This document shows, one piece after another, positions 47,328-64,000 of a stretch of 64,000 nt of DNA. Position numbers and translations under genes: made by a program. The stretch is taken from NCBI RefSeq assembly GCF_039535095.1, contig NZ_BAAAWN010000001.1, positions 1,240,001-1,304,000 on the forward strand, written 5' to 3'. The notes below the pieces were generated by a model. It searched no databases, had not been told where the DNA came from, and saw only the letters and a program-made list of their open reading frames with translations. Within the stretch, counting starts at the first letter, position 1; each line of letters begins with the position of its first letter. This DNA comes from Arthrobacter ramosus (GTDB lineage Bacteria; Actinomycetota; Actinomycetes; Actinomycetales; Micrococcaceae).

Positions 47328-47366
47328 CTTTGGGTAGTTCACCCTTTTCCCCACCCCGGGATCACC

Positions 47367-49304: not shown

Positions 49305-50251
49305 GTGGGGTACTGGGCCACGGACCGATACCACAGGACCGGGGCCCTCTCCGGGATGTAGGGGATGAGGTCGGTTAAGGATTTGGTGGTGAGGATGCCC
49401 GCCATGGCTGTGAATTCGGAGAGGCTTACCGGAATGGCGAGCATGTGCTGCATCCATGTGGTGCGCAGCCTCGTCGTAACCGGATTTCCGATGCGCCCGG
49501 GGTATTCGACTTTGGAGAGGAGGTGGTTGAATCGGTCATTCGAGCCGTTGCCAGTAGCGCCGATCAGCGGCTCGCCAGGGTGCTGGGCCGCGATCTCCTG
49601 AAGGGGGAGGAAGTACCGTTCGCTTATTGGTATTTGGCGTGGCCGTTCGCCAGCCAGGACAAGGACATTAGTGCTTGCGACGGTTCGGAAGCTAGACGAA
49701 GTGACGTTCAGATACTCGTCGGCGAAAAGGCCGGCCCCGAGCCCGAGACACAGATGCGCAGTGGACGTTCGTCGCCGATTCGAAGTGCGCTGCTGGTCTG
49801 CGATCCGGAAGAACTCGCTGATCTGGTGTTCGGTGTATGGCACCGCGAGCTTCTTGATTGGGAATTTCCTTGGCGGGGGCGACCAGGGGGCCTGCTTAGT
49901 CACATTTGATCCGATCCGGCTTAAGAATCCCCTCCGGGTTGCCCGGGAATGCGGGGCAAGATGATCGGTTCCGACCTCGATATAGTGTTCGACCTGAAGC
50001 GGTGTGAACATCTCCTCAGCGTCCAACGGGAGGCCTTCAAGAAACTGAAAGGCCACGAAATACGCGGTGTGGCTCATATCATTCATAACCGAGGCGGGTG
50101 CCTGCGATCCGCCCGTCAATACGGTGTGTTGGACGAACGACCGGATTTCCGGCCAGACGCGCGCTGGTGCAGACCCTGCTTGGGGCCGGTAAGACTCCAC
50201 CACCTCTGCGCCAGTCCATCTCAACTTGCCGCCGACCATCACCGGCTTCAT
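49301..50251 (-). CDS. Tyrosine recombinase-like protein with a degenerate active site
   Basis: The 316 residues have the order of a phage-type integrase: an N-terminal SAM-like DNA-binding part (about 30-130) and a C-terminal part with LCLGLGAGLFADEYLNVTSSS in the place of the first-arginine motif, RQIPISERYFLPL, TRLRTTWMQHMLAI for the HxxR motif, AMAGILTTKSLTDLIPYI for the GH...Y motif. The first arginine, the HxxR histidine and the GH histidine look replaced (F, T or R, and I), while one arginine and the tyrosine remain. Activity is thus uncertain; the family call is from pattern only. The mRNA seems leaderless. Confidence 0.55.
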   Translation of the reverse strand: MKPVMVGGKLRWTGAEVVESYRPQAGSAPARVWPEIRSFVQHTVLTGGSQAPASVMNDMSHTAYFVAFQFLEGLPLDAEEMFTPLQVEHYIEVGTDHLAPHSRATRRGFLSRIGSNVTKQAPWSPPPRKFPIKKLAVPYTEHQISEFFRIADQQRTSNRRRTSTAHLCLGLGAGLFADEYLNVTSSSFRTVASTNVLVLAGERPRQIPISERYFLPLQEIAAQHPGEPLIGATGNGSNDRFNHLLSKVEYPGRIGNPVTTRLRTTWMQHMLAIPVSLSEFTAMAGILTTKSLTDLIPYIPERAPVLWYRSVAQYPT

Positions 50252-50258
50252 GCCAAAA

Positions 50259-50288
50259 ATTATACGCCTAGATACTATTTGATGTCAT
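50259..50288 (-). promoter_or_regulatory. Consensus promoter of the recombinase/transposase pair
   Basis: On the minus strand ATGACA (50288-50283), an 18-base spacer and a perfect TATAAT (50264-50259) precede the ATG at 50251 by 7 bases. Transcription would start at or next to the A of the ATG, giving a leaderless mRNA. Confidence 0.75.
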
Positions 50289-50448
50289 TTGACGCAATCC
50301 AGCCCTGTGTGTAGCGTTTGACTACTTAGAGTGTGCTGAGTATTGTTTTGACACAAACGACGTTTCCGTCCGACGGTCTCGCTGATGCGGCGCGGCCGCC
50401 CCCGTGTCGGATGACCCGGAGCCGTCAGCGGAGAGCTAGCTTGGCAAA

Positions 50449-50700
50449 ATGGACCACATGACACCCTCGCAGCCCCGCTTCATGAAACTCCATGATGTAG
50501 CTGAGGAGCTGAACATCAGCCAAGCACAGGCCTATGGGTTGGTCCGGAGCGGGAAACTCCCCGCCATTCAAGTCGGCGGCCGCAACCAGTGGAGGGTTGA
50601 ACGTGTGAAGTTTGAGGAGTTCATCGCGCGTATGTATGAACTTACCGGCGATCACGTGAGCGAGCTCGCTGAACATAGGGAACCTCCCCTGGCCGAGTAG
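50449..50700 (+). CDS. Small excisionase/MerR-like helix-turn-helix protein
   Basis: This 83-residue protein is one winged helix-turn-helix domain of the excisionase type: FMKLHDVAEELNISQAQAYGLVRSGKLPAIQVGGRNQWRV (helix-turn-helix then wing), followed by a short helical tail. Such proteins act as recombination directionality factors or small repressors, and close relatives also occur as ordinary chromosomal regulators in actinobacteria. It is divergent from the recombinase-like gene across 197 bases. ATG 50458 is an alternative start. Confidence 0.75.
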   Translation: MDHMTPSQPRFMKLHDVAEELNISQAQAYGLVRSGKLPAIQVGGRNQWRVERVKFEEFIARMYELTGDHVSELAEHREPPLAE

Positions 50701-50854
50701 AGTCCAGGCAGTTTCCGGGGAGCTCCTCGTGGCGGACGAACCTTAAATGCACCATTGCTAGACAACGGCAAAGCGCTGTTGCGGTGGTGCGCGTCCTGAC
50801 TGGACGCGCCGGGAGCATCGGTGCCAATGCAAGATCGTAGCCAGCCCAGCTATC

Positions 50855-51271
50855 GTGGTGGTTATGGCCATGGCTGACGAACACCGGCTCAGTTCACGCA
50901 AGACGGCTGCGATCATGAGGCGGGAACTCGCTGGCGGTGACCCGGACTTCGCCTTCCGGGTCATGACCTCGGCATTGGCTGACTTCCGTCACACGCATCC
51001 GGCAAACCGTCCGGATTTTCTGGTGCCCCCCGAGTCCACCGGGTCGAAGCGGTGGGACACTCTGCTTGCAGCGGTCGTTGGGCGCGAGTGCGACCGTCTC
51101 GGAATTCCCCGGCCTCCCTGGACGAAGCCGGAACCTCTGGCAGAGGAATGGGTCGTCACGACCCTGGCGGCACCGTCCGAGCAATGGATCGCCAGAATCA
51201 GAGCCGGGACGCCGGAGGAGTTCTCGCGCCTGGGCCTGTGGGTCCATGCTCGCGACCTGGAAACCTTGTAA
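50855..51271 (+). CDS. Orphan protein of unknown function, possible antitoxin-like
   Basis: Starts at GTG 50855, ATG 50864 or ATG 50870 give about 133-138 residues (ADEHRLSSRKTAAIMRRELAG ... EEFSRLGLWVHARDLETL). It has an N-terminal helical region and a C-terminal segment whose last residues recall the small proteins that precede DUF6036-type nucleotidyltransferases in putative toxin-antitoxin pairs. No such partner follows. After its stop the same frame stays open and protein-like to about 51364 (ERTAERIASGAFNWED), which hints at decay by a premature stop. I do not assign a function. Confidence 0.5.
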   Translation: MVVMAMADEHRLSSRKTAAIMRRELAGGDPDFAFRVMTSALADFRHTHPANRPDFLVPPESTGSKRWDTLLAAVVGRECDRLGIPRPPWTKPEPLAEEWVVTTLAAPSEQWIARIRAGTPEEFSRLGLWVHARDLETL

Positions 51272-51533
51272 CCAGCCCACCGGCCCTTCCGCGAGAGGAC
51301 GGCGGAGCGCATCGCCTCCGGCGCCTTCAACTGGGAGGACCCGGGTTCCGTCAGCCGAATCTAGCCGTGGTCGAAACCGGGTCCGACCAGGCTGCCGATT
51401 GGTATATGTGGGCACGTTCGTCCACGGAGTTGGGTCAGATAACTCGCCATATCGCTGATCTGAATCCGTGAGGAGTGTTCGACCAACCAGCGGCGTTCCG
51501 GAACCAAGGAAGTGGGACACTCTCCGACGGGCA
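51272..51533. other. Probable gene debris between the island end and the catabolic locus
   Basis: No convincing gene is present. Protein-like fragments occur in two frames: one continues the previous ORF past its stop to a TAG at 51362-51364, and another ends with ADWYMWARSSTELGQITRH and a TGA at 51469-51471. This suggests remnants of one or more inactivated genes. Confidence 0.35.
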
Positions 51534-52532
51534 CTAACTGGTCATGATGGGTCCCGCAACCTGCTTAGCCATCGATGTCTCACGGGATCGACTCGCTGGG
51601 CGTTCACTTGGAGCTCGTCGGGGACTCAAGTGGATCCCGGCGATCATGCACCTAACTGAACCCCCCGCCAGTTCAATGGTTGGAACATCGATCGGGAGGA
51701 GACGGCAGCTGCGCAAGATGACTTCCTTCTGTGCGGTCGTCAAGCTATTGAGGGCACGGCGAGATAGAGCCAGGATCCGGCCCTCGGGCCCCTGCAATTC
51801 GATGGCGTTTCCTGCAAATTCCGAGACTTGGCGAAGGCTCAGTCCGATGACCGCCCGCCCGCCGCTACTGAGACGTTGGGCGACTTCAGTGCGGCGAGCT
51901 TTCGATCGAATCATGTCCAACCCGACCATGGCGAACTCGGTCGCTACACACATCATGACATTGGTGTGGTAGACGGCAACTCCGGCCCCATCTGCGGCGT
52001 CGAAGGTCATGGGCTCATAGCCAAAGTTCGTGCAGAACCGCTCCAAAGCAACCGGGTCGGCCCGGTTGGACCTGGCCGTGTATGCGACCCGGTCCGTATG
52101 GTCCAGGACCATGGCTCCGGTGCCTTCAAGGAAGACATCATCCATTTCCAAACCTGAGTAATCAATGACGTCCTGGACCCGGTAGTGGGTCTTGAGGAAG
52201 TCGAGGATATCGGTTCGGCGCTCGGTCCGTCGGTTCGGCGTGTACATCGGAAACACGCCGATGTGCCCACCGGTATGAGTTGACAGCCAGTTGTTGGGAA
52301 ACACGCTGTCGGGTCGGGTGTGATCGAGATCTTCGAACAGGTGCACCCTAATGCCTGCAAGCTCTAGCGCCTGGGCAACGGCAGTCACCTCGTCGTAAGC
52401 AGCTGCTGCGATCCTGTCCGGATCCCGAACTGCCGCGCTGGCTTGGAAAGCATTGTCCGCTGCTGTCTCCGGGTTCGGTGCGAAACGATGCGGCCGGATG
52501 AGTACGACTGCAGAGGGGGCCTGGACGGACAT
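51534..52532 (-). CDS. ctlX: Amidinotransferase-fold hydrolase, citrulline hydrolase CtlX-like
   Basis: This 332-residue enzyme belongs to the guanidino-group-modifying superfamily (DDAH/arginine deiminase fold). Residues of the catalytic set are visible: an acidic FLEGTGAMVLDH segment, H189 (VYHTNVMM) and C295 (GGSVRCMIAG). PDSVFPNNWLSTH near residue 75 is the substrate-binding block of the CtlX branch, where the product is ornithine plus ammonia and CO2 from citrulline. A 30-residue basic tail follows the core and looks non-conserved. It begins 8 bases after the ornithine cyclodeaminase stop, so the two are co-transcribed: citrulline to ornithine to proline. Confidence 0.85.
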   Translation of the reverse strand: MSVQAPSAVVLIRPHRFAPNPETAADNAFQASAAVRDPDRIAAAAYDEVTAVAQALELAGIRVHLFEDLDHTRPDSVFPNNWLSTHTGGHIGVFPMYTPNRRTERRTDILDFLKTHYRVQDVIDYSGLEMDDVFLEGTGAMVLDHTDRVAYTARSNRADPVALERFCTNFGYEPMTFDAADGAGVAVYHTNVMMCVATEFAMVGLDMIRSKARRTEVAQRLSSGGRAVIGLSLRQVSEFAGNAIELQGPEGRILALSRRALNSLTTAQKEVILRSCRLLPIDVPTIELAGGSVRCMIAGIHLSPRRAPSERPASRSRETSMAKQVAGPIMTS

Positions 52533-52540
52533 GGTGAGAC

Positions 52541-53572
52541 TCAGGATCCGAGCGGGGAGAGTGCGCCGACGAGGCCGAAGAGGTCTTTCGGGTCATCCGG
52601 GTTCGCGACCAGGTCGATGGTTTCGAAGTATTCCGATCCTTCGATGGAGTCACGTACGTAGCGCAGTGCGGAGAAGTCTTCGATGGCGAAGCCGACGGAG
52701 TCAAAGATGGTGATCTGCCCGGCAGATGTCCGGCCCGGTGCCGTGTTGTTCAGGACCTGCCAGAACTCGGTGACGGGGAAGTCGGCTGGCATTTGCTGGA
52801 TCTCGCCTTCGATGCGGGTTTGGGGTGCAAATTCAACGAAGACGTCTCCCATTCTGAGGATTTCGGCGTCGAGTTCTGTCTTCCCGGGGCAGTCTCCGCC
52901 GATGGCGTTGATGTGGACGCCGGGCGTGATCATGTCTGCCGTCAGGACGGTCGCGTTCGTCTTGTCAGCCGTGCAGGTAGTGATGACATCCGCGCCCTCC
53001 ACGACATCGGCCGCGGAGGATGCGACTGTGATGTCGAAGCCGAGGGGCGCCATGTTGCGGAGGAACTTATCGATCGCTGCGCGGTCCGTGTCCCAAACCC
53101 TGAGTGTGTCGATGCCAAGCGCGGCCCTGAACGCAAGTGCTTGGAATTCGGACTGGCTGCCCGTTCCGATCATGCCCATGACCCGGGAATCGGGTTGTGC
53201 CAGCTTCTTCGCAACCATGGCGGAGGTCGCAGCGGTCCTCAGTGCCGTCAGCACGGTCATCTCGGTGAGGAAAGTGGGGTATCCGTTGTGGACGTCCGCC
53301 AGGACACCGAAGGCCGTAACGGTCTGGTATCCCCGGGCGGGGTTAGAGGGGTGCCCGTTGACGTACTTGAAGCCATAGGTTTCATGGTCGCTGGTGGGCA
53401 TGAGCTCGATGACGCCGAAGGGAGTGTGACTGGCCACCCTGGGTGTTTTGTCAAAGGATGGCCAGCGTCGGAAATCATCCTCGAGATAGTCAATCAGATC
53501 GGCCATGATCCGTTCAGGGCCGCGGGCGGCAGTCCATCGGATCATGTTGCGGACATCAACGAAGCGCGTCAT
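52541..53572 (-). CDS. ocd: Ornithine cyclodeaminase
   Basis: This enzyme of the ornithine cyclodeaminase/mu-crystallin family converts L-ornithine to L-proline and ammonia with bound NAD. The 343-residue protein has GFKYVNGHPSNPARG (substrate lysine region), LRTAATSAMVAKKL, the NAD-binding MGMIGTGSQSEFQA with glycines at 136 and 138, and NAIGGDCPGKTEL, which is the true-OCD form of the catalytic aspartate block. This last motif argues against an alanine dehydrogenase or ketimine reductase. It is separated from the FAD enzyme upstream by a strong hairpin, so its expression may be partly independent. Confidence 0.92.
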   Translation of the reverse strand: MTRFVDVRNMIRWTAARGPERIMADLIDYLEDDFRRWPSFDKTPRVASHTPFGVIELMPTSDHETYGFKYVNGHPSNPARGYQTVTAFGVLADVHNGYPTFLTEMTVLTALRTAATSAMVAKKLAQPDSRVMGMIGTGSQSEFQALAFRAALGIDTLRVWDTDRAAIDKFLRNMAPLGFDITVASSAADVVEGADVITTCTADKTNATVLTADMITPGVHINAIGGDCPGKTELDAEILRMGDVFVEFAPQTRIEGEIQQMPADFPVTEFWQVLNNTAPGRTSAGQITIFDSVGFAIEDFSALRYVRDSIEGSEYFETIDLVANPDDPKDLFGLVGALSPLGS

Positions 53573-53723
53573 GGCGTCTCCTTTTTTCGGTGGTCATGAA
53601 GGGCGGTCAAGGGACAGGTTCCTTTGAGAAATTCGGGACGAGGCCGGTCAGTCAGAGGGAGCAGGACCAGCTCTCTTTTGGGCCAGACCTCGGTGTCATC
53701 CGATTAGACCGAAATGGGGAACT

Positions 53724-53766
53724 GTTGCCGTGTGTCCGGCCCACCCGGGGCCGGCCACACGGCAAC
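53724..53766 (-). terminator. Hairpin between the FAD oxidoreductase and ocd
   Basis: An 18-bp inverted repeat with a single mismatch (53724-53741 and 53749-53766, 7-base loop) lies 17 bases after the oxidoreductase stop and about 150 bases before ocd on the same strand. It lacks a T run, so it may act as a partial terminator or mRNA-stabilising stem inside the cluster. Confidence 0.7.
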
Positions 53767-53782
53767 GGTTATCCGTCTGTTG

Positions 53783-54952
53783 CTAGTGGGCAACGATGCG
53801 CTCTGCCTCAAGCGCATGCGGGTCAAAGGTCGGAGTCTGGTTTGTGTCGGAACCGATGACGCGGGAAGGACGGAAGTCTTCGAGGAGCTTCGGGGCCTTG
53901 CCGCCGGTAATTTCCTCGGCCGCTAGACGTCCGGTTACAGCCCCCAGTGTCACACCGCTGTGCATCGTGGTGACGTACAGGCCCGGCTTTCCATCCCAGA
54001 AACCGACAACAGGCAGTCCGTCGAAGGGGTAGGGGCGGTGGGCGATCTGGACTCGTTCTGCCTTGAGCGCGGCGGGATCGACGTCGAGGATGCCGGCTCC
54101 GGCCTGTTCGAACAATGTGCGGATGGCTGAATCAGGGACTGTCCACGTGTCGAGGTCGATCTGATCATCAATAGCGGACGATCGCACCAGGATGCGGCCG
54201 CTGGTGTCCGGACGGACGCTCAGGCCGGGCAGGTGAAGGATGGTAGTTAGCTTTGACGCGCCGGGCGATGTCGTCACCGTAACACCCGGCTCGCCTTCGG
54301 TGCTTACATCGATACCCTGGGAGTCCAGGATCCCGCCGATGCCGGCGCCTGCTGCAACAACGACGACGTCGCTTTCAAGCCTCTCCCCGCCCTCGAGGAC
54401 GACGCCCTTGACGGTGTCACCGTCGGCCAAAAGTTCCGCGACCTTGGTCGAATGGCGCACTGTTGCACCGTACGCGGTCGCTGCCGTGAGGAGGTCGTGG
54501 ATGAGCAACGGGACGGTGATCTGGCCTTCGCTTGGGAAGAAGGCAGCGACCTTGTATTCATTACGGATTCGGATGACCGGATCGATGCGCTGGAGTTCGC
54601 CGGGTGAGAGAGGGATGGCCGCGTAGCCATAAGACTCGAGGCGGGCGACTCGCTGCAGGAGCTCTTGCGCGTCCGCGTCTGTACCGGCGACATCGAGGTT
54701 GCCGTTGATGTCAAGCCATGAAGAGCTTCGCAGCTCCCGGGCGACGACGTTCCATTCGGCCATCGAGATGACGTTCAGATCGTGGTAGCTCCGTTCTTCC
54801 TTTGTGTTGGAGTTCAGCCAAGCGAAGCTGGCCGCGCTGGCAGCTTCTCCCGGAATTCCTTTGTCGATGATTGTGACGTCGACACCGCGTTTTGCGAGTT
54901 GGTACGTGACGGACGCGCCCAGCACGCCTGCGCCGATGACGATTGCTTTCAT
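53783..54952 (-). CDS. DadA-like FAD-dependent amino-acid oxidoreductase
   Basis: This 389-residue flavoprotein belongs to the DAO superfamily. It starts with the FAD motif KAIVIGAGVLGASVTYQLAKRG and the acidic end of the second strand (VTIIDKG), has ASFAWLNSNTKEERSYH and a C-terminal FAD-contact block HSGVTLGAVTGRLAAEEI. The closest pattern is D-amino-acid dehydrogenase DadA; opine oxidase subunits and sarcosine-oxidase-like enzymes share this fold. ATG 54952 follows AGGAG by 8 bases; the frame upstream to 54982 is not needed. In this cluster it may oxidise a secondary or D-amine to release an amino acid and a keto acid. Confidence 0.85.
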   Translation of the reverse strand: MKAIVIGAGVLGASVTYQLAKRGVDVTIIDKGIPGEAASAASFAWLNSNTKEERSYHDLNVISMAEWNVVARELRSSSWLDINGNLDVAGTDADAQELLQRVARLESYGYAAIPLSPGELQRIDPVIRIRNEYKVAAFFPSEGQITVPLLIHDLLTAATAYGATVRHSTKVAELLADGDTVKGVVLEGGERLESDVVVVAAGAGIGGILDSQGIDVSTEGEPGVTVTTSPGASKLTTILHLPGLSVRPDTSGRILVRSSAIDDQIDLDTWTVPDSAIRTLFEQAGAGILDVDPAALKAERVQIAHRPYPFDGLPVVGFWDGKPGLYVTTMHSGVTLGAVTGRLAAEEITGGKAPKLLEDFRPSRVIGSDTNQTPTFDPHALEAERIVAH

Positions 54953-55074
54953 TGCGGATTCTCCTGTTCGATTCGCCTTCACCGTTTTTGGGCACGGCGT
55001 GGTTTGGAATTGTGTGACCCCGAGCGGAGCGCGGGAGTTCAGTGGTACCTGGGTCTTCGCCCAGCTGAGGTTTC

Positions 55075-56421
55075 TTAGACGTTGAGAGGGGGGACTTCTG
55101 CCTTGGAGTAGGCGACGTCGCCGTCGATCATGACCAAGGCGATATCGGCGAGGCTCCGCCGGGAGGAAACGACGAGGTCGGCTGCGAAACCGGCCTTCAG
55201 GAACCCGCGATCCGCGCCGATGCGGGGCAACGCTTTTGCCACGTTTCCCGTAGCAAAGGACACTGCCTTTTCCACCGGTGCAAGCCCGACCTGGACGATC
55301 CCGGCGACCAATTCCCAGATTCCATCCCAGTGCCCTGCAGCGTAGTCTGTGGCAATGATGTCAACGAGATCCTCCTGAATCATGGCGATCATGTGATCCG
55401 GTGTGGTCTGCAGCTCACGGCGGCCCCAGGCGTCGAAGGTGTCGATTTCCACGTGTCCGCCGTGTTCCCGGATAAGCCGGGCGTTGGCAAGGGACTCCTC
55501 GACGGAGTAGGTGTCGTGGTTCGTGTGACCCCCAATGAAGAGCGGGCCAGCTATTTTGGCGGCCTCACGGGCAGCTTCGTCCGAGGCGGCGGCGTTGTGA
55601 ACGAGAGTAGGCAGCCCCAGCTCGACGGCGAGCTGAGCCGAGCGGACCAGCCCGTCGAGTGAAACCTGCATGGACGGGAGGACCGAGCCTTCGATGAGCG
55701 AGATTGTCTCGTCTTCGGAAAGCTTCTGGAGCCCGTATTCCCCGAGCAGCTCTGCGACGCGCTCACGGTCAGGGTTTCCAGGCCGGATGTGACGGCCGAG
55801 CACTGCGTACTTTAACTCCATGGCTTGAGCCGGGCTGATCCGCACCCCGATGGCCTTCTCCACCGCCGCAGGAATGTACAGGTAGTCCTGGCCACCGCCG
55901 CCAAGGGTCATGCCGGCGCCCACCTCGCCGATGACGACGGCACCGCGATCGCGCATCGTGCCGGCTGTCATGGCCCGGTGTGCTGCAGTCAGACCGGAAC
56001 CGTCGGCAGCATCGGCCGCTTCGAACATCGGATCGAAATGAACTGTGGAGGACTCGACCTTCACCGGCTGGGCTGAACGGACTTCTGCTGTCTCCTCCGG
56101 AAGTTTGAACCCGTCGAGGTCGACAACAGTCGTATGCCCTTGGACCAAGTGGCGCCGGAGGTTGCCAAGGGCCTCGCTTAGCGGAACGCCTGGGGTTCCG
56201 CTGGCGAAGCGGGGCCCGGGCGCGGCAGCATGCGCGTGGGCGTTGATCGCACCGGGGACGACGGTGCGTCCGTCGAGATCTAGAACAGTGTCTCTTGGCC
56301 CGCCGCTCAGGTCCTCGGGCGTTACCGCAGCAATTACACTCCCTTCGATAGCTATCGACCCGGCAAATGGCCGTGTCCGCCCATCCCCGTTGACGATTTG
56401 GCAGTTTCTGAGGACGAGCAT
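55075..56421 (-). CDS. Amidohydrolase-superfamily metal-dependent hydrolase
   Basis: This 448-residue protein has the composite layout of cytosine-deaminase/imidazolonepropionase-like amidohydrolases: a small beta-sandwich (LRNCQIVNGDGRT, LDLDGRTVVPGAINAHAHA with H62 and H64), a TIM barrel with EVGAGMTLGGGG, LVHNAAASDEAA, GGHTNHDTYSVEE as likely metal-ligand loops, and TDYAAGHWDG with the catalytic aspartate. The end returns to the sandwich (GADRGFLKAGFAADLVV). The substrate is unknown; family members deaminate or open C-N bonds in cyclic amides, formimino or guanidino compounds. Its promoter carries the repeat operator. Confidence 0.82.
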   Translation of the reverse strand: MLVLRNCQIVNGDGRTRPFAGSIAIEGSVIAAVTPEDLSGGPRDTVLDLDGRTVVPGAINAHAHAAAPGPRFASGTPGVPLSEALGNLRRHLVQGHTTVVDLDGFKLPEETAEVRSAQPVKVESSTVHFDPMFEAADAADGSGLTAAHRAMTAGTMRDRGAVVIGEVGAGMTLGGGGQDYLYIPAAVEKAIGVRISPAQAMELKYAVLGRHIRPGNPDRERVAELLGEYGLQKLSEDETISLIEGSVLPSMQVSLDGLVRSAQLAVELGLPTLVHNAAASDEAAREAAKIAGPLFIGGHTNHDTYSVEESLANARLIREHGGHVEIDTFDAWGRRELQTTPDHMIAMIQEDLVDIIATDYAAGHWDGIWELVAGIVQVGLAPVEKAVSFATGNVAKALPRIGADRGFLKAGFAADLVVSSRRSLADIALVMIDGDVAYSKAEVPPLNV

Positions 56422-56467
56422 GAGGTCTCTCTTTCAGTTTCGCGACGGCGAGCAGGTGATATCGACC

Positions 56468-56496
56468 AGTATGATGTAACTAATTACATTTCGCAA
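56468..56496 (-). promoter_or_regulatory. Promoter of the amidohydrolase unit
   Basis: On the minus strand TTGCGA (56496-56491), a spacer of exactly 17 bases and CATACT (56473-56468) form a good sigma-70-type promoter, 47 bases before the ATG. The spacer is almost entirely the 16-bp operator at 56474-56489. Confidence 0.7.
56474..56489. promoter_or_regulatory. Operator copy 1 (amidohydrolase promoter)
   Basis: ATGTAACTAATTACAT is a near-perfect palindrome (ATGTAA-n4-TTACAT). It is the exact reverse complement of the copy upstream of the importer genes. Placed between -35 and -10, it would block RNA polymerase when bound. Confidence 0.8.
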
Positions 56497-56736
56497 GATT
56501 CCGCTCTCTACGATGCTCTTAGAGGGCGTGTTTTAGCCCTAGATCTAGTCGAAATTGCACCTTGGTCGAGCAGCATGCATCGGCGGGACCGGATCGCTGT
56601 GGGGTGGCGCGCGGAAGGGGGCATGGGCGCCCTCTGGAGGTGATGGAGCGGGGCCCTGGGTCTGTGATCGACCGTGGTCATCGGTGATGAATGATGCGCC
56701 GACCCCCTCGCATCAGGGGAAGCTATTGCTCAGGAC
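56497..56736. other. Intergenic region downstream of lacI-type gene
   Basis: No gene is seen. Next to the regulator's stop a 7-bp stem (TGATGCG at 56692-56698 and CGCATCA at 56709-56715) could be a weak terminator. The rest, including an ATG-rich segment near 56570-56640, shows no convincing coding or regulatory signal. Confidence 0.3.
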
Positions 56737-57732
56737 TTAGCGGAGCTCTCCGCAGGAGGCGCGGCTTATGAGCTCGGGTTCGAAGGTCAGTTGGGCGGAC
56801 ACTCGGGGGTTCTCGACAATGAGCTTGGCGGCCTCTTGTCCCATCTGGTGTGAGGGTTGGGTGACCACCGTGATGCCGAGGTTCTGGGCCCAGGCGAAGT
56901 CGTCCATGGTCAGAAATCCGATGTCTTCCGGAATTGAGAGTCCGCGGTCGATAAGTGCTGTGTGAACGGCGAGGGTGTAACGGCCGGAGAGGCAAACCAT
57001 CGCCTCCATTGAAGGGTTGGCGTCCAGCAAGGAAGTCACAGCGTCGGTGACTTCCGGGGTGGTGACGTCGTCGTCGAGGATCGCGATCGCGTCATCGTTC
57101 AGTAGTGCGTTGTCCTTGCCGAGTCCCTTGCGTAGGCCCTCGATACGGCCAATTTGGGACGGTACCGCGCCGGAGGCGATCACGCCGATTGTCCGCCGTC
57201 CGCAGGACAGGATGTGCTCGGCCATCATTCGCCCGGCCGTGACGTTGTCCAGGGAGACGGAGTGCAGCCCGGGTGGTGGGTCCTGCAGGGTCCGCGCTAC
57301 GACCACACAGGGCGTTCCGCCGGCAGCCATTCTGCGCACTCTTTCGTCAACCGAGGCGCCGCTAGTGACGATCAAGCCCCGTACACGCTGTTCATCCATT
57401 GCCTGGACCTGCGCGACCTCCCGACCTGTGTGGCGGAAGGTGTTGGAAAACATGACGAGGCTGCCGTTGGCGGCCGCGACATCGTCGATTCCCCTCATGA
57501 GGTCGAGGTAGAACGGGCTGCGAAGATCGTCGATGAGCACGCCGATGGTGCTGGAGCGTCCGGCGAAGATGCTCTTTGTGAGGGCGTTCGGGGTGTACTC
57601 AAGTCTGGCTGCTGCGTCCCGGACCCGCGTTGCCGTCACTTCCTTGACTGCGAGGCCGTTCAGCACCCGCGACACCGTCGCTATTGACACGTTGGCGGCT
57701 GCGGCGACGTCGCCGATGGTCGTTCGTTTCAC
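56737..57732 (-). CDS. LacI-family transcriptional regulator
   Basis: The 331-residue protein has the LacI N-terminal DNA-binding domain (TIGDVAAAANVSIATVSRVLNG, hinge region YTPNALTKSI) and the periplasmic-binding-like effector domain (STIGVLIDDLRSPFYLDLMRGID, GIGF-type segments, DIGFLTMDDFAWAQ). GTG 57732 follows AAGGA by 7 bases and begins KRTTIGD, the expected start; the frame upstream to 57906 runs through its promoter. It lies between the amidohydrolase/FAD enzyme genes and the divergent importer operon and probably represses both. The inducer would be the imported compound or a product. Confidence 0.93.
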   Translation of the reverse strand: MKRTTIGDVAAAANVSIATVSRVLNGLAVKEVTATRVRDAAARLEYTPNALTKSIFAGRSSTIGVLIDDLRSPFYLDLMRGIDDVAAANGSLVMFSNTFRHTGREVAQVQAMDEQRVRGLIVTSGASVDERVRRMAAGGTPCVVVARTLQDPPPGLHSVSLDNVTAGRMMAEHILSCGRRTIGVIASGAVPSQIGRIEGLRKGLGKDNALLNDDAIAILDDDVTTPEVTDAVTSLLDANPSMEAMVCLSGRYTLAVHTALIDRGLSIPEDIGFLTMDDFAWAQNLGITVVTQPSHQMGQEAAKLIVENPRVSAQLTFEPELISRASCGELR

Positions 57733-57863
57733 AGTTTGTTCCTTACCGTGGATCAGCCAAGGGTTCAGACGCAGCCCAACACCGCGAGGAACTGGCGCGA
57801 TCGCCAGAGCCCGAAGAAGAAGGCTTCCGCGGCTTCGTTTGATACTGGCCACGCCCACCTTCA

Positions 57864-57879
57864 ATGTAACTGGTTGCAC
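57864..57879. promoter_or_regulatory. Operator copy 2 (upstream of the regulator gene), weaker
   Basis: ATGTAACTGGTTGCAC matches copy 1 at 12 of 16 positions, with the left half-site complete. It lies 132 bases before the regulator start, consistent with weak autoregulation. Confidence 0.55.
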
Positions 57880-58107
57880 GATAAGCGCCTGCGTCAGAAG
57901 GGTCAAGGGGTTCCCGCACGATGGCGCGGAAAGCCGAAACCCGAGCCGCGCAGAGCCAGCCCAACAGGTTCAATCTTAGCTCGTCCGGGCTCTGATTGCC
58001 TCGTGATGTAGGCGTTGTCACCTCTGCAATCGTGTAGAGCCATACGAGAATGACGTACCCATCAGAGTTAGATCTTGACCGAAGATGCGTCGGTATGCTC
58101 TCCTTGA

Positions 58108-58123
58108 ATGTAATTAGTTACAT
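58108..58123. promoter_or_regulatory. Operator copy 3 (importer operon)
   Basis: ATGTAATTAGTTACAT is the exact reverse complement of copy 1. It lies 9 bases after a possible -10 (TATGCT), so it would cover the transcription start of the importer operon. Confidence 0.8.
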
Positions 58124-58387
58124 AGATCACCTCAAGACCTTGAAAGTAAATCTATGTTGAACACTCGAAGGGCTTCCCGTGAATGTCAGCAACAACCCGG
58201 ATTGATGACACAGAAGGTGAAGTGAGGGCAAACCGGTAGTTCGGCAATGATGCCGGCCTCGCAGGAACGTCCTCGGAACACCCACCCAATATCTCCTCAT
58301 CGGCACGCGACACCAACGGCGATGCCTGACCAGAGGTTCACGAAAACTTGAAATTATCCGCATTCCGCAGCTCAAGAGGAGCAAATC

Positions 58388-59401
58388 ATGTCGGTTGACG
58401 AACAGTCCATCCCGGTTCGGGGCGACGGCGCATTTGCGCACCCGAACGTTTCCGCAAAGAATGACGTACGCCGCTGGCGCACATCCCTCGCCGTTGCTGC
58501 TGTCGCAGTCTCCATCAGTCTTGCGGGCTGCACCGCGGATCCCGGTACGGCCAGCAGCAGCGCCAGCCCGTCCGCTAAGAGCACGGGAATCCCGACCCAG
58601 CAGTTTGATCAGACACTGCACGACAAGCTGCCGGCGAAAATCCTTAACGCCGGCAAAATCGTCGCCGTCAACTCGGGGTCCTACCCTCCATACGCGATCA
58701 TCAACGGCACCGGTGAGCCAGACGGACTCCTCGGTGATGTGGACAAGGCTGTCAGCGAGATCCTCGGCGTAAAGGTCGAGCAAAACACAGTCGCAGGTCT
58801 GGCCTCAATGCTTTCCGGAATGCAGGCCGGGCGCTACGACGTCGCCTTGGACCCGAACGGCGACTACGTCGACCGCCAAGACAAGGCGACGTTTGTCGAT
58901 TACATCAAGGAGCACGTGCTCTTTGCTGTACTAAAGGGAAACCCGAAGCAGATCAACGACATGGACGGGACCTGCGGAACTCGAATCGGTGTCCTGGCAG
59001 GCGGTTCTGCTGAGCGGGTCATGAAGGCTCAATCGGACAAGTGTGTGGCGGCCGGCAAGCCTGCGGTTGAGGTGCAGTCCTACCAGGACAGCCCACAGTC
59101 AATCCTTGCCGTTCAGTCCGGCCGCGCTGACGCAGTGTTCGGCGGCCAGGGGCCGCTGACCTACTACGTCAAGGAGACCGGGGGCAAGCTCCAATTGGCC
59201 GCCGAAGGAAAGGACAACGTACTCGGGGCCACGTTCCAGGGCGCAGTGGTTCCGAAGGATTCTCCGCTCGCCGGGGTGCTGCTCGGCGCATTCCAGAAGA
59301 TGTATGCCAACGGCACCTACGATGCCATCCTCGCCAAGTGGGGGCTGGAGGCCAACAAGTTGGACAAGCCCGGTATCAATGGAGGAGGCGTTAAGCCATG
59401 A
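58388..59401 (+). CDS. Amino-acid ABC importer, substrate-binding lipoprotein
   Basis: This 337-residue lipoprotein (lipobox LAGC, C48) is of the polar amino-acid/SBP_bac_3 family: NAGKIVAVNSGSYPPYAIINGTGEPDGLLGDVDKAV, the Asp in ALDPNGDYVDRQ, and GGSAERVMKAQ. This family includes binding proteins for arginine, ornithine, octopine and nopaline. Unusually for a lipoprotein, a polar stretch of about 28 residues precedes the signal helix; AGAGGAG 6 bases before ATG 58388 supports this start. A Ser/Ala-rich linker follows the cysteine. It delivers ligand to the permease encoded next. Confidence 0.92.
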   Translation: MSVDEQSIPVRGDGAFAHPNVSAKNDVRRWRTSLAVAAVAVSISLAGCTADPGTASSSASPSAKSTGIPTQQFDQTLHDKLPAKILNAGKIVAVNSGSYPPYAIINGTGEPDGLLGDVDKAVSEILGVKVEQNTVAGLASMLSGMQAGRYDVALDPNGDYVDRQDKATFVDYIKEHVLFAVLKGNPKQINDMDGTCGTRIGVLAGGSAERVMKAQSDKCVAAGKPAVEVQSYQDSPQSILAVQSGRADAVFGGQGPLTYYVKETGGKLQLAAEGKDNVLGATFQGAVVPKDSPLAGVLLGAFQKMYANGTYDAILAKWGLEANKLDKPGINGGGVKP

Positions 59402-60366
59402 CGACCATAGGAGATAAACGTATCGTGGTCGCCATGGAACCTGAACTGGACGTCCAAAACGCAGCACGCCGTAAGCACCTGTGGCGCTGGATTTCGGCTG
59501 CCGTCGTCCTGGTCCTTGTGATCGACGGCGTCCGGATCCTAGTAACCACGGATACCTTCGCATGGCCCGTCGTTGCGAGCTACCTGCGCGCGGACTCCAT
59601 CATCCGTGGCCTCGGCCTGACCCTGATGTTGGCCGTCGTCGCCATGGTGATCGGCGTCGTGCTCGGTGTGCTGCTGGCCTTGGGCCGGCTGTCACCTAAC
59701 CCTGTGCTGCGGAGTATCTCGGGCGCCTACGTCTGGTTCTTCCGGGGAACACCCACACTCGTGCAGCTGATCTTCCTTTACAACCTTTCTGCGCTCTTCC
59801 CGCAGCTCAACTTCGGTATTCCGTTTGGCGGCCCGATCTTCGCATCCTTCTCGACGAACTCGCTCATCACGCCTCTTCTCGCCGCTATCCTGGGCCTCGG
59901 GCTGAATGAGGGTGCATACATGTCCGAGATCGTCCGGGGCGGTCTGCTCTCCGTGGATTCAGGACAGCGCGACGCCGCACACGCCCTTGGCATGACGAAC
60001 TCGCGGATCATGAGACGGATCGTCCTGCCGCAGGCCATGCGCTTCATCGTCCCGCCGACCGGGAACCAGGTCATCAGTATGGTGAAGGCCACCGCACTCG
60101 TGAGCGTCATCGCATTGTCGGACCTGCTCTACGCGGCTCAGGCCATCTACAACCGGACATTCGAAACCATTCCGCTGCTCATTGTGGTGTGCATCTGGTA
60201 CCTGGCCGTGACATCCGTGTTGTACGTCATTCAGTCGTTCATCGAGCGGCACTACAGCCGAGGCGAACGAAATCAAAGGACCAGTTTCTGGGACTTCCTG
60301 CGTATCCGTCCGAGAGCAACGACTCCGCCCATCGTACACACTGTGACAGAGGGACCGACAGCATGA
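59398..60366 (+). CDS. Amino-acid ABC importer, permease
   Basis: This 322-residue permease is of the HisM/GlnP class, with an N-terminal extra helix ([17 protein letters not shown]), five core helices and the EAA loop that binds the ATPase ([24 protein letters not shown]). [15 protein letters not shown] is a family hallmark. Only one permease gene is present, so a homodimer is likely. It overlaps the binding-protein gene and the ATPase gene by four bases each (ATGA both times). Confidence 0.93.
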
Positions 60367-61172
60367 GCACCTCGACGGAATCTCCAACGCCCCGTCTCGA
60401 CGCTACTGGCATAGCGCCTATTCTGCGGGCCCGCGGCGTGCGCAAGAGCTTCAAGCATCTTGAGGTGCTGCGCGGCATCGACCTCGACGTTTCACAGGGT
60501 GAGACTGTCGCCATTCTCGGTCCATCCGGGTCCGGTAAGTCGACATTCCTCCGCTGCGTGAACCTGCTCGAGCCTATAAATGGTGGCCGCATCCTGGTTG
60601 ACGGCCGTGATGTCGGATACGACGTCCGAGGCGGCAGACTGAACGAAGTCTCACCCAACGAGCTCGCTCGTCGTCGTCGCGACATCGGCATGGTGTTCCA
60701 GCACTTCAACCTGTTCCCGCACATGACCGCGCTCGAGAACATCATCGAAGCCCCGATCGGGGTAAAGGGGGAGCGCCGAGCTGATGCAGTTAAACATGCC
60801 AGGTCACTTCTTGCCCAGGTCGGTCTTGAAGGAAGGGAAGATGTCTACCCCCGGCAACTGTCAGGCGGTCAACAGCAGCGTGTAGCAATAGCACGTGCTC
60901 TGGCAATGCGACCGAAACTGATGCTGTTCGACGAGCCAACCTCCGCCCTGGACCCCGAATTGGTCGGCGAAGTCCTCGCGACAATGAAGCAACTGGCTGA
61001 AGGCGGGCTCACCATGGTCGTCGTTACCCACGAGATCAGTTTCGCCCGGGAGGCCGCTGACCGCGTCATCTTCATGGACGGCGGCGTCGTCGTCGAACAC
61101 GGAACTCCACAACAAGTGCTCGATGTGCCGCAGCATGAACGGACCCGTGCCTTCCTGTCCCGTTTTCTCTGA
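60363..61172 (+). CDS. Amino-acid ABC importer, ATPase
   Basis: This 269-residue ATPase is of the polar amino-acid importer type: Walker [19 protein letters not shown]-loop [14 protein letters not shown], signature [14 protein letters not shown], Walker [15 protein letters not shown] and H-loop VVTHE. A 28-residue N-terminal extension precedes the domain. ATG 60363 overlaps the permease stop and is preferred to the open frame upstream. Confidence 0.95.
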
Positions 61173-61187
61173 AGCTCGTCCGGCCCG

Positions 61188-61220
61188 AGCCGGTACAAGG
61201 GCACCTGCCCTGTGCCGGCT
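61188..61220 (+). terminator. Possible terminator after the importer operon
   Basis: AGCCGGTACAAGGGCA and TGCCCTGTGCCGGCT can pair with one wobble and one bulge. It lies 15 bases after the ATPase stop but has no T run, so it may be a weak or partial terminator. Confidence 0.4.
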
Positions 61221-61471
61221 TGCGGCCCCGATTGCCGCTAACTGAATGTCGCCGGAGGGGCCAAAGACGACGGTCCCCAGACGACCATTGGTCGTGATCG
61301 GTTCTGGCGTCTTCGCGAACACCACCCGGGCGGCCAGGGTCGGCGACCATGCTGACCTCTTGGACCGGTCGATTCGACCTTGCCGGGCTCCTGACCTAAG
61401 CCTGTGCAAGCACTTCTTATTCGATATCCCCCCGGACGGAATGCTGTGACGAGAACTCGTGGAAGAAACTC
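61221..61471. other. Intergenic region before the small-protein genes
   Basis: I see no gene, operator copy or clear promoter here. It separates the importer genes from the downstream small-protein/opine-dehydrogenase-like genes, which could still be read through. Confidence 0.3.
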
Positions 61472-61777
61472 ATGCAGAAGAAAAAGAAGAAGACATCCGA
61501 GCCCCTCGGTGGGGGCTTCACTGCTCAAGACTGGACCGGATTGCTGCCGGGACAGCGTGTATGGGTTCGGTCAAGTGACGGGGCGTCCTTCGCCGCTGTT
61601 GTCGAGACGAAGACGAGCAGTTCCAACGCAGTGTGGATCGTGCGCGATGACAACCTGAACACCAGGCAGGTCTTCATCCATATCGAAGGCATCCAGTTAC
61701 TGCCGATCGAGCACGATGACGATCCACGAGCCCAGAGCAGCGAAACCCATGAAAGAAACATATCCAATGGAATCTAG
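61472..61777 (+). CDS. Small hypothetical protein with SH3-like beta barrel pattern
   Basis: This 101-residue protein starts with a lysine run (MQKKKKKTSEP), then alternating beta-strand sequence (LPGQRVWVRSSDGASFAAVVETKTSSSNAVWIVRD) that looks like a small barrel, and an acidic tail. GGAAG lies 8 bases before the ATG. I do not recognise a family. The end overlaps the next small gene by 11 bases. The position between the importer and the octopine-dehydrogenase-like gene suggests a shared function, but this is only context. Confidence 0.5.
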   Translation: MQKKKKKTSEPLGGGFTAQDWTGLLPGQRVWVRSSDGASFAAVVETKTSSSNAVWIVRDDNLNTRQVFIHIEGIQLLPIEHDDDPRAQSSETHERNISNGI

Positions 61778-61976
61778 CTCCCAGTCGGTACACATCACGG
61801 TGTCCGACGCTGCACTTGTCGACGAATTCCTGACCGAGGCCGTAGAAAGCCTTATGAAGAACGCGGCCGCCAATAACTGCGGCATTCTCGTGACACGACA
61901 CAGCCAGGAAATCTATACCGCCGACGTGAATCCACATGTGCCTTTCGGCATCACCCGCGAGATCAGTCGGCTGTAG
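61767..61976 (+). CDS. Small hypothetical protein
   Basis: Starting at ATG 61767 this gives 69 residues (ESSSQSVHITVSDAALVDEFL ... GITREISRL); ATG 61749 is an alternative with six more residues. It looks like a small alpha/beta protein with SLMKNAAANNCGILVTRHSQEIYTAD in the middle. No family was recognised. It overlaps the preceding small gene and lies 89 bases before the octopine-dehydrogenase-like gene on the same strand. Confidence 0.5.
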   Translation: MESSSQSVHITVSDAALVDEFLTEAVESLMKNAAANNCGILVTRHSQEIYTADVNPHVPFGITREISRL

Positions 61977-62065
61977 ACCTCGGCGGACGTGCTCCGGCCC
62001 GTTCGCTCCTGTCCGGAGTGTTGCTGTCTTACACCCCAGCTTCATTTCTTAGAGAAAGAGACCCG

Positions 62066-63088
62066 ATGGCTAACATCGTAATCAGATCCGACGAGGCCAA
62101 TGCCGCTGCGACAGCGCTGACATTGGCCGCGAGAAACCACTCCGTCTGCCTCCTCACACTCGCTCTCGCGCCGGGGGAGCACGATTTCAGCTATTTCGGG
62201 GAGCGACGCACACTTCCGCTCCGCAGGGTGGAGGAACTGGACCCATCGGCGCCGAGGGTGGGCATTGTCTTCGCCGAGGGAGAAGACATAAAAGCCGGCA
62301 TCAGAAGTGTCGTGGGTTCAACGTCCCCAGATCTGCTGGTCATCATCGGCGGGGGCATCACAGCGGCTGTCGAATCCACGGAAGCGGCACAGAGTCTCGG
62401 TTTCGACGTTTGCAGGATTCTTCTGGCGGGGGCCTTCCTTGTCGGGGGCAATGCCTCCGCGGTCAGGTCTGAGAAGCAAGGGGTATTGGCGGGCTTCCTG
62501 GCTCCGGGAACGCCGGCGCCAGTGGTGGAGCTGGCTGAATCAACGTTTCCGCAGATTTCCATCGGCGACGCCTTCAGCGTGGCACTTTCGAGCGTCAACG
62601 CGCTCTTCCACCTTCCTCCGATGATCCTGAACGCCATGAGCGTCGAGAGGGCCGACGACGTCCGATTCTATGTCGAAGGGTTCGGCGACAGCGTCTCCAG
62701 GCTCCTGCTTGAGCTCGACGCAGATCGTCTCCGACTCGGTGCCGCGCTAGGCCGCGTCCTCGTGCCCATCGAGGAACTCAATGACAGATACAGTGGCGAT
62801 GCTGACAAACACGGAACGACTCTCAGGGAAAAGGTCAACTCCCCGCTTTCCACCCAGTCCATCAAACTGCCCTCCAGCTTCCACCACCGGTTCCTGGCGC
62901 ACGAATTACGGTCCACGTTCGCGCCGATGTCCGAACTGGCCGACGCACTGGGCGTTGATGTACCTACGATCAGGTCAGTCGTTAGACTCGGCGAAATCCT
63001 GCTGGGTTCCGAACTCGGGCCTGAGGCGCGGGCCGCGGCGGGCAAGTTCCTGGGCTTGATCGACGCGAAAGCGGATTCGGCCCGCTAA
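62066..63088 (+). CDS. Octopine/opine dehydrogenase-family protein lacking the Rossmann glycine motif
   Basis: The 340-residue protein has the C-terminal domain of the octopine/nopaline dehydrogenase family: NALFHLPPMILNAMSVE near residue 177 with the catalytic-type histidine H181, FYVEGFGDSVSRLLLELDADRLRLGAALG, and HHRFLAHELRSTFAPMSELADALGVDVPTI, as in enzymes that join amino and keto acids. The N-terminal part follows the Rossmann-domain pattern, but the GxGxxG turn is replaced by IVIRSDEANAAATAL, with no glycines. Cofactor binding may thus be lost or altered. ATG 62066 is chosen as the start; the frame reaches back to 62018. It follows the small-protein genes. Confidence 0.7.
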   Translation: MANIVIRSDEANAAATALTLAARNHSVCLLTLALAPGEHDFSYFGERRTLPLRRVEELDPSAPRVGIVFAEGEDIKAGIRSVVGSTSPDLLVIIGGGITAAVESTEAAQSLGFDVCRILLAGAFLVGGNASAVRSEKQGVLAGFLAPGTPAPVVELAESTFPQISIGDAFSVALSSVNALFHLPPMILNAMSVERADDVRFYVEGFGDSVSRLLLELDADRLRLGAALGRVLVPIEELNDRYSGDADKHGTTLREKVNSPLSTQSIKLPSSFHHRFLAHELRSTFAPMSELADALGVDVPTIRSVVRLGEILLGSELGPEARAAAGKFLGLIDAKADSAR

Positions 63089-63418
63089 CTGGCGGATCGG
63101 CGGCGACTCACGACAGGCCAAGACCGGCGCCGGCGGCCGGTTCATCATGGGGGTGCACTCCTCGTAAGCCGCCGGGTCATCAGTGATGGCCGGGGCGAGC
63201 GCTATGTCTCATCTTTGATCCGATCTATCCCCGAAGTTGCGGGCACGGGAGGGCTCGATGGAATAGTTGACGGACAGCTTCTTAGTCGACCCCGGTCAAA
63301 TAGCCACCTCTGGATCGCCGAGCGACAGGTCGGCGCCATGCCCCGGATCCGCGGGAGAGCGAAGATGCTCGGTGATTGGTTTGTGTTGGCGAGGCTTCCC
63401 CAAAGATAGGATCCAAAC
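63089..63418. other. Intergenic region before the protease gene
   Basis: There is no convincing gene in these 330 bases; the short frames on both strands have no domain-like sequence. A GC-rich imperfect repeat (ggcgccggcggccgg, about 63127-63141) is present near the left end. I see no recognisable promoter. Confidence 0.3.
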
Positions 63419-64000
63419 ATGATTCAACAGTTGCCAACGCGATTCTCGCCGTATTCTCTTAAGAGTGTTCGGATTCAAGTCCTGGATATCAACGGCACAA
63501 CCGTGCTTCAAGCTTCGGGTTTCCTCGTGTCGCACCACGGCAGCATGTGGTTGGTGACAAACGACCACGTTGTATCTGGATTCAACTTCGAAAGCCGACG
63601 GCCCCGGGAACGCGATCGAATATGGCTCGATTGGGCAGAGAACGGCAGTAGCCGTCCCAACAGGATTCGTGTGCATCTGCCGACGCCAGACGCTGAAGCG
63701 CCGGAAGCGTTGTTCGAAGAATTGAGTCCTGCCCGCATTGATATGGATCTCTACGATGCGAGCAAGAACGAGCTCTGGAAATCGGTCAAGAGTCCTCCAA
63801 CCAACGGGAGCCTATTAGCTGATGTGGTGGGCATTGAGATTCCGAAGGAAGAGCAAGAACGGCTTCCGTTGGCTGACTATTGCTATTTCTGGAACGGCGA
63901 GCACCCATACTTCGAAGTCACTGACCGTGTCTGGGTTGTCGGCTATCCGGCCTCCGTGGGCAAACACGTTCCAACAACCCCTATCTGGACAAGTGGTTCC
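63419..64000 (+). CDS. Trypsin-like serine peptidase domain protein, cut by the window end
   Basis: ATG 63419, with AGGA 7 bases upstream, opens a frame that is uninterrupted to the last base (194 codons). The strand-loop ASGFLVSHHGSMWLVTNDHVV holds the catalytic-type histidine of chymotrypsin-fold peptidases (TNxHVV). The acidic LLADVVGIEI segment could carry the aspartate, and WVVGYPASVGKHVPTTPIW fits the following strand. The nucleophilic serine would lie beyond the window. No signal peptide precedes the domain, so it may act in the cytoplasm, as do protease modules of some defence proteins. GC content is lower than in the neighbouring genes, suggesting possible transfer. Confidence 0.75.
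   Translation, partial: MIQQLPTRFSPYSLKSVRIQVLDINGTTVLQASGFLVSHHGSMWLVTNDHVVSGFNFESRRPRERDRIWLDWAENGSSRPNRIRVHLPTPDAEAPEALFEELSPARIDMDLYDASKNELWKSVKSPPTNGSLLADVVGIEIPKEEQERLPLADYCYFWNGEHPYFEVTDRVWVVGYPASVGKHVPTTPIWTSGS

Follow-up and report, generated by a model that had tools for sequence, protein, structure and literature searches.

A cluster of catabolic genes lies between positions 51534 and 63088 of the DNA analysed here, a stretch of 64,000 nucleotides from Arthrobacter ramosus (hereafter the window; G000:C1:1240001-1304000 of a 5.25-Mb genome that forms a single contig). We tentatively read its core as a catabolic cassette under LacI control that was acquired horizontally and belongs to the general opine/Amadori type. 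It would import and oxidatively cleave an N-substituted amino acid, and we place this reading a little short of an even chance. The computed results comprise a common operator, an association of an amidohydrolase with an FAD oxidoreductase of the DAO family, a row of importer, DAO and octopine-dehydrogenase-like genes in one other genus, citrullinase residues in CtlX and an insertion at ssrA. The features of the cluster are as follows, on the window scale; values above 64000, used further below, carry the same numbering past the end of the window.

51534-52532, minus strand: CtlX, putative citrullinase (NCBIfam NF046062, 404.8 bits against a cut-off of 334)
52541-53572, minus strand: ornithine cyclodeaminase (OCD, P0002; NF005762, 550 bits against a cut-off of 350)
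53720-53770, minus strand: candidate terminator hairpin in the gap between the FAD oxidoreductase and OCD genes (23-nt arms, 91% complementary; -43.5 kcal/mol, z -4.43)
53783-54982, minus strand: DAO-family FAD oxidoreductase (P0003; Pfam DAO, 162.8 bits)
55075-56421, minus strand: enamidase-like amidohydrolase (P0004; Pfam Amidohydro_1, 37.3 bits, cut-off 25)
56474-56490, no strand: LacI-type candidate operator palindrome, 53 bp 5′ of the amidohydrolase gene (exact 17-nt match)
56737-57732, minus strand: LacI-family regulator (open reading frame, ORF, opens at 57906; Pfam LacI and Peripla_BP_1)
57864-57879, no strand: weaker operator copy 5′ of the LacI regulator gene (3 mismatches)
58107-58123, no strand: second exact candidate operator palindrome, 5′ of the importer genes (17-nt match)
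58388-59401, plus strand: solute-binding lipoprotein, family 3 (P0006; Pfam SBP_bac_3, 66.6 bits)
59398-60366, plus strand: polar amino-acid ABC permease (Pfam BPD_transp_1; HEQRo_perm_3TM)
60363-61172, plus strand: polar amino-acid ABC ATPase (ORF opens at 60189; Pfam ABC_tran, 124.6 bits)
61173-61260, plus strand: candidate terminator hairpin 3′ of the ATPase gene (-51.1 kcal/mol, z -4.46)
61472-61777, plus strand: small ORF, doubtful gene (no Pfam, NCBIfam or plasmid-collection match)
About 61749-61976, plus strand: small ORF, doubtful gene (ORF opens at 61716; no Pfam match)
62066-63088, plus strand: octopine-dehydrogenase-like protein (ORF opens at 62018; Pfam Octopine_DH, 94.5 bits against 30)

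All genes named in the original prediction are present in these 11.5 kb, with family matches in Pfam or NCBIfam. The importer that it had announced is there with a binding protein, one permease and an ATPase. Its two small unknown proteins exist as ORFs that might be no genes, since they are without a Pfam match; tblastn at 0.01 likewise found nothing like them in the Paeniglutamicibacter locus described below. The likely starts of the genes for the LacI regulator (57732), the ATPase (60363) and the octopine-dehydrogenase-like protein (62066) were judged by eye from the translations. The ATPase gene and parts of the loci L008, L026 and G180 were read by tblastn or by hand, and ORFs on the opposite strand were set aside as chance ORFs.

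The evidence for common control comes from the intergenic regions. The word ATGTAACTAATTACAT is found at 56474, and its reverse complement at 58108, 5′ of the binding protein gene; the identity between both regions extends to 17 nt (ATGTAACTAATTACAT plus one base), whereas the longest common word in 1000 randomised pairs of the same regions was 13. The two palindromes precede, respectively, the amidohydrolase–FAD oxidoreductase unit and the binding protein–permease–ATPase unit. Allowing up to three mismatches, the 16-nt pattern has three sites in the window against 0.05 expected (100 shuffles), the third being the weaker one 5′ of the LacI gene. With up to two mismatches, it occurs in the 5.25-Mb genome at those two places only, and a reversed control pattern has no site at two mismatches genome-wide. 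Near copies were also found in Nonomuraea zeae (L008), between the DAO and LacI genes and between the LacI and amidohydrolase genes, and the window site differs from each of them at 2 of 14 positions. The joint pattern TGWAACTARTTWCA matches exactly at the N. zeae and window loci only, in 1.31 Mb of sequence, a count that is post hoc because the pattern was composed after viewing the Nonomuraea intergenic sequences; a background site at up to one mismatch falls inside the genomic island of A. ramosus itself (L055). Because the palindrome is common to both units and has near copies in Nonomuraea, LacI most likely controls the importer, the amidohydrolase and the oxidoreductase jointly through this candidate operator. 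The 11.5-kb stretch as a whole is probably not a single operon, since strong hairpins lie between the oxidoreductase and OCD–CtlX genes and 3′ of the ATPase gene.

The second line of evidence is the association of the amidohydrolase with the oxidoreductase. Relatives of the amidohydrolase are encoded at 20 loci in named genome contigs, four of them at 59-69% identity: one in Nonomuraea, one in a Candidatus Dormiibacterota bin and two in bins titled bacterium. In three of these four the gene next to that of the amidohydrolase encodes a DAO homologue (32-35%), in Nonomuraea the LacI gene separates the two, and all four have a LacI gene (28-38% identity) within 6 kb. Further, 18 of 52 amidohydrolases at 54% identity or more are on contigs of the same size as those of oxidoreductases at 52% or more (n = 71, from the best 120 of 609 matches), while a decoy set of 49 more distant oxidoreductases matches the amidohydrolase contig sizes once. 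Equal-sized contigs are an indirect sign of co-location, given that only the longest contig per cluster is listed. Glutamicibacter creatinolyticus, two Agromyces and one Leifsonia are among the sources of the shared contig sizes. P0003 forms a single clade with 12 homologues (support 100/100 in the tree). Closer to home, the amidohydrolase is rare. It was found in the own genome only, both among 149 genomes of the family at 1e-20 and among 396 of the order at 1e-80, and at 1e-60 in 10 of 395 family genomes, nine of those at 35-40% identity; these sets overlap, and in the 395- and 396-genome searches at most four candidates per genome were scored, so that misses are possible.

What the amidohydrolase might do was approached through its profile. 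None of the best 25 of 36 matching NCBIfam families came near its cut-off. A profile of 26 homologues searched against the PDB had enamidase (2vun) as its best match, covering positions 5-170 only, with a weak C-terminal piece; 8-oxoguanine deaminase, imidazolonepropionase and hydantoinases are among the other matches. Residues H62, H64, E166, H275, H299 and D359 are invariant across the 26 sequences and fit the HxH, Glu, His, His, Asp set that we take to be the binuclear-metal ligands of enamidase.

Several loci were read in which the relatives have other company. The 35-40% amidohydrolases of nine Micrococcaceae were rejected as support, the two of these nine loci that were read having other genes as neighbours. 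The OCD genes beside 37% amidohydrolases on Agrobacterium and Pelagibacterium plasmids were likewise dropped because blastp gave no match to P0002 at 1e-3. These two plasmids (L037, L038) have in common a block of response regulator, amidohydrolase (36-37%), MmgE/PrpD and the OCD-annotated gene unlike P0002, and the block adjoins acyl-homoserine-lactone genes. In the bins L009 and L010, genes for an MmgE/PrpD-type protein and a second amidohydrolase come after the oxidoreductase–amidohydrolase pair. In Nonomuraea two tandem genes for transporters of the small multidrug-resistance family (L008:6852-7558; SugE matches best, though below cut-off) end next to the gene for the oxidoreductase. On the Arthrobacter sp. 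Hiyo8 plasmid pHiyo8-1 (L063:11723-12847) an oxidoreductase homologue is split over several frames, annotated as hypothetical proteins. The anaerobes Lutispora, Formimonas, a Synergistales bin and Cuneatibacter (L012, L013, L017, L024) carry 35-39% amidohydrolases that adjoin genes for fumarase alpha/beta, methylaspartate ammonia-lyase and an Fe–S protein (L012, L017 and L024, by eye), and these loci might perhaps encode an uncharacterised anaerobic ring-opening pathway.

The octopine-dehydrogenase-like protein is connected with the importer and the oxidoreductase by one other genus. In Paeniglutamicibacter (G180), genes for a GntR regulator, binding protein (31%), permease (41%), ATPase (52%), DAO (30%) and octopine-dehydrogenase-like protein (68%) follow one another on the same strand; the 32 kb read contain no gene for an amidohydrolase, CtlX or OCD. 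At 1e-40 the protein was found in two of 395 family genomes, the own one included. It had no match among 10 genomes of the genus of G151 and, at 1e-10, none in the plasmid collection. The contig sizes 10945 and 6379 recur for homologues of the amidohydrolase, the DAO and the octopine-dehydrogenase-like protein, and 16316 for the latter two; a coincidence at 2489 bp between the amidohydrolase and octopine-dehydrogenase lists was discounted, the sources being different and the contig short.

The protein itself is unusual. Its Pfam Octopine_DH match spans the helical domain only (residues 184-326). The original prediction had spoken of an altered opine dehydrogenase, and this holds for the family: 25 of 26 members are without GxGxxG/A in the first 70 residues, the one match lying off the N-terminal turn, and where the glycine-rich turn would be they have a stretch such as IRSDEANAAATA. 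The motif is present in three of four distant PF02317 proteins, the fourth having been read on the wrong ORF. His198 aligns with the catalytic His of 1bg6, and the position of the Asp that completes the dyad there is mostly Glu. A further amidohydrolase locus among the 20, in a Bacillota bin (L026; 40%), has next to the amidohydrolase an octopine dehydrogenase of the ordinary kind, which keeps the glycine motif. A 2024 study gives the GxGxxG/A motif and the His–Asp dyad as features of the opine dehydrogenase class and sets aside candidates without the cofactor-binding consensus (PMC10787698).

The relatives of the importer bear on the type of substrate. The binding protein is matched by 482 plasmid records, of which six regions were read. 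Among these, the closest relatives of the importer are on alphaproteobacterial, rhizobial-type plasmids (solute-binding protein 49-54%, permease 53-62%, ATPase 59-71%). A gene of M20 type is directly downstream in five of the six (two by Pfam, the others by record annotation), and in the sixth an annotated amidase lies just upstream. Because M20 or amidase genes stand beside these importers, the comparison favours, by analogy, a substrate with an amide bond.

The cluster appears to have been acquired as part of a larger element, whose features in and beyond the window are these.

46962-47328, plus strand: tmRNA gene ssrA, left edge of the island (ARAGORN; Rfam RF00023, 157.8 bits)
47330 to about 104150 (to about 1344150 on G000:C1), no strand: genomic island of about 57 kb, 47330-64000 of it inside the window
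47535-49457, minus strand: transposase-like protein at the left end of the island (weak DDE_Tnp_1_6, below cut-off)
50449-50700, plus strand: small helix-turn-helix protein, excisionase-like (Pfam HTH_17, 41.9 bits)

Of 61 genomes sampled at ssrA, 60 had a match, and the six most similar there were compared. The DNA 3′ of ssrA in these relatives aligns to the own genome at 104159-110353 on the window scale, starting at 104160 in two cases and at about 110300 in four, and the right junction of the island has CCACTTT in common with the end of ssrA. Because the relatives continue after ssrA with DNA found beyond the island here, the catabolic cluster is, as judged from sequence, carried as cargo by the island of some 57 kb inserted at the ssrA 3′ end. 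None of the six relatives has a close amidohydrolase, and five carry a 37-39% relative. Copies of the ssrA 3′ end (26-29 nt) were noted some 5 to 56 kb from ssrA in three relatives (G759:C5:68277-68302, G382:C27:121320-121348, G364:C2:958089-958114), and ssrA is suggested to be an integration site across the genus. The tmRNA was the only Rfam hit in the window stretch, and six related loci had none. Downstream of the cluster, a trypsin-like peptidase-domain protein runs from 63419 on (Pfam match weak, below cut-off).

In the scheme that we infer, including the order of its steps, ring opening, the substrate and the role of the octopine-dehydrogenase-like protein, the ABC importer would take up an amino acid that is N-substituted and perhaps cyclised, and whose amide or lactam ring the enamidase-like amidohydrolase would open. 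The DAO-family flavoenzyme would oxidise a C–N bond, and the imine would then break down to an oxo compound and an amino acid. Were the latter citrulline or ornithine, CtlX and OCD could convert it to ornithine and proline. The octopine-dehydrogenase-like protein may work on the same substrate or imine, without NAD(P). A more specific proposal, which we consider unlikely, is that the amidohydrolase and oxidoreductase together form a new route by which N-substituted amino acids in cyclised form, either lactam opines or glycated arginine of the hydroimidazolone type, are oxidised. An octopine-dehydrogenase fold would here have been recruited without its dinucleotide cofactor and might, for instance, finish the work of the oxidase by hydrolysing or cleaving the imine. 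Among the titles listed for lactam opines and for hydroimidazolones, none concerned such enzymes.

CtlX has FPNN at 78 and HTN at 189. According to PMC9007349, these Asn motifs tell CtlX from guanidine-acting enzymes, which have FTRD and HLD, and the function itself is called putative. With a family model above its cut-off and both motifs present, CtlX stands as announced in the original prediction, as a putative citrullinase that would hydrolyse citrulline to ornithine. At 1e-60 it was found in 8 of 149 family genomes, the own one included. OCD adjoins ctlX in six of the seven other loci, and a second OCD, 84% identical, lies outside the island at G000:C1:89488-90516 (L054). CtlX–OCD is thus a portable module, and it may or may not serve the pathway of the cassette. 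The presence of OCD says little, because OCDs of the P0002 kind are common (527 plasmid records match). In G141, which its kinship label places in the same genus, CtlX–OCD and an importer of the class found in the window are divergently oriented (solute-binding protein 29%, permease 49%, ATPase 56%), and in G012 a DAO gene (31%) ends beside ctlX.

These observations make it quite possible, if on the doubtful side, that the window holds neighbouring independent cassettes: a LacI regulon for a compound unrelated to arginine metabolism, CtlX–OCD for citrulline and the octopine-dehydrogenase-like protein as a third passenger of the island. None of the seven other ctlX loci has an amidohydrolase or octopine-dehydrogenase-like gene in the 17-20 kb read, all four close amidohydrolase loci have the DAO without CtlX–OCD, hairpins flank the regulon on both sides, and the other genes of the island look mixed when read by eye. 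However, the octopine-dehydrogenase-like protein accompanies importer and DAO in Paeniglutamicibacter, its homologues share contig sizes with those of the amidohydrolase and the DAO, and the G141 and G012 arrangements tie an importer and a DAO to CtlX, all of which argues against full independence.

Returning to the single LacI-controlled cassette for an N-substituted amino acid, a number of results weigh against it. The four close amidohydrolase loci are without the octopine-dehydrogenase-like protein or a homologous importer as well as CtlX and OCD (one of them, L009, comprises only 6.6 kb). Locus L010 carries a TRAP transporter instead, which precedes the pair, and the DAOs of the close loci fall outside the window DAO clade in the tree (two of them tested). 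No high-identity homologue with a known substrate came up for the amidohydrolase or the oxidoreductase in the searches made. CtlX–OCD lies behind a strong hairpin (-43.5 kcal/mol), with no operator copy in its 5′ region. The six plasmid importer regions are without a DAO and go with M20 aminoacylase or amidase.

Set against the original prediction, the picture is mixed. Its opine idea keeps an importer, an amidohydrolase and an FAD oxidoreductase under a common LacI-type operator, and loses ground in that CtlX–OCD is free-standing and no alpha or gamma subunit of the heteromeric octopine/nopaline flavoenzyme was recognised among the main ORFs. The pairing of such an importer with an FAD oxidoreductase recurs in the soc region of pAtC58 and, with the octopine-dehydrogenase-like protein, in Paeniglutamicibacter. 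Its pairing with CtlX–OCD is seen in G141, but in the window no operator copy was found before the pair and OCD says little. As to a conjugate of arginine, citrulline or ornithine, an origin of the substrate from the last two is plausible at best, and arginine is disfavoured since CtlX points to citrulline or ornithine. The genes were expected to be kept together in relatives, which applies to the amidohydrolase and the oxidoreductase; the full set is seen only here.

It is very unlikely that the cluster is a soc-like Amadori system, with a glycated (fructosyl) amino acid as substrate and the oxidoreductase as an amadoriase. The gene layout is as in soc, and the soc proteins are 31% (DAO), 30% (LacI), 48% (ATPase) and 34% (permease) identical to those of the window. 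Arthrobacter isolates with soc genes from tobacco roots are reported to degrade santhopine (PMC8262997). However, the soc DAO is a long branch of uncertain place outside the 13-row, 100/100 clade of the window enzyme, and it is weakly supported where it joins a wider half. Between P0006 and the soc binding protein no match came up at 1e-5, and the amidohydrolase has no evident place in the soc pathway. A role of the amidohydrolase and oxidoreductase in breaking down some nitrogen heterocycle other than an opine, such as an imidazolone or lactam, is highly improbable: the PDB profile matches and the fumarase and methylaspartate ammonia-lyase neighbours in some anaerobes would suit it, but the importer is of the polar amino-acid class and the anaerobe relatives, only 35-40% identical, might act differently.

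If the cassette reading holds, opine-like catabolism has here a representative that is not agrobacterial and for which the regulon and a candidate operator are defined. Its enzyme pair, which can be put to the test, is met again in several genera of actinobacteria and in a few bins of other bacteria, and NCBIfam gave no model above cut-off for it among the matches listed. Should the substrate be a lactam opine or a glycated amino acid, soil- and plant-associated actinobacteria would share a food source usually discussed for agrobacteria. The relatives of octopine dehydrogenase without the cofactor motif also raise the question of an opine dehydrogenase fold that works without NAD(P).

Among known systems, the rhizobial-type plasmid importers resemble the window in their homologous binding protein, permease and ATPase and in an amide-hydrolysing enzyme nearby, which is an M20 aminoacylase or amidase there and an amidohydrolase with a DAO here. 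The ctlX–ocd citrulline utilisation genes are adjacent and have the diagnostic residues as in the window, where they stand beside a LacI catabolic regulon on an island. The NAD-dependent opine dehydrogenase of Arthrobacter (1bg6) shares the helical domain and the catalytic His with the window protein, whose glycine-rich nucleotide-binding turn is replaced. Agropinic-acid catabolism combines an importer and an FAD oxidase with a lactam-opening hydrolase of another family. OCD belongs to the agrobacterial octopine and nopaline pathways, and the window cluster also has one. The occ/noc and OdhB-C-A systems join an ABC transporter to a flavoenzyme of the DAO superfamily, as in the window, but they have arginase, in whose place the window has CtlX, together with a LacI regulator. 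Flavin opine dehydrogenases are heteromeric, with an Arg-X-Trp FMN motif in the beta subunit, and their genes in Pseudomonas putida are also flanked by one whose product resembles NAD(P)H opine synthases (PMC4575208). In the window, Pfam recognised no alpha or gamma subunit among the main ORFs from 47.5 to 64 kb, where a very small ORF could be missed, and P0003 is without R-x-W, a three-residue motif that makes a weak test. In soc (santhopine/deoxyfructosyl-glutamine), one report places socR and socABCD beside repABC on pAtC58 (PMC4231840). The Agrobacterium pAtC58 record (L065) has there genes for LacI, a binding protein, permease/ATPase, a Gfo/Idh/MocA protein and DAO, the assignment of socA-D to these genes being inferred from gene order. 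LacI, a family-3-type binding protein, permease/ATPase and DAO are found in the window as well, which differs in its extra amidohydrolase, in the separate permease and ATPase genes and in the Gfo/Idh/MocA gene (SocC-type), recognised by Pfam in none of the ten main window proteins scanned. The closest known systems are soc and occ/noc/odh.

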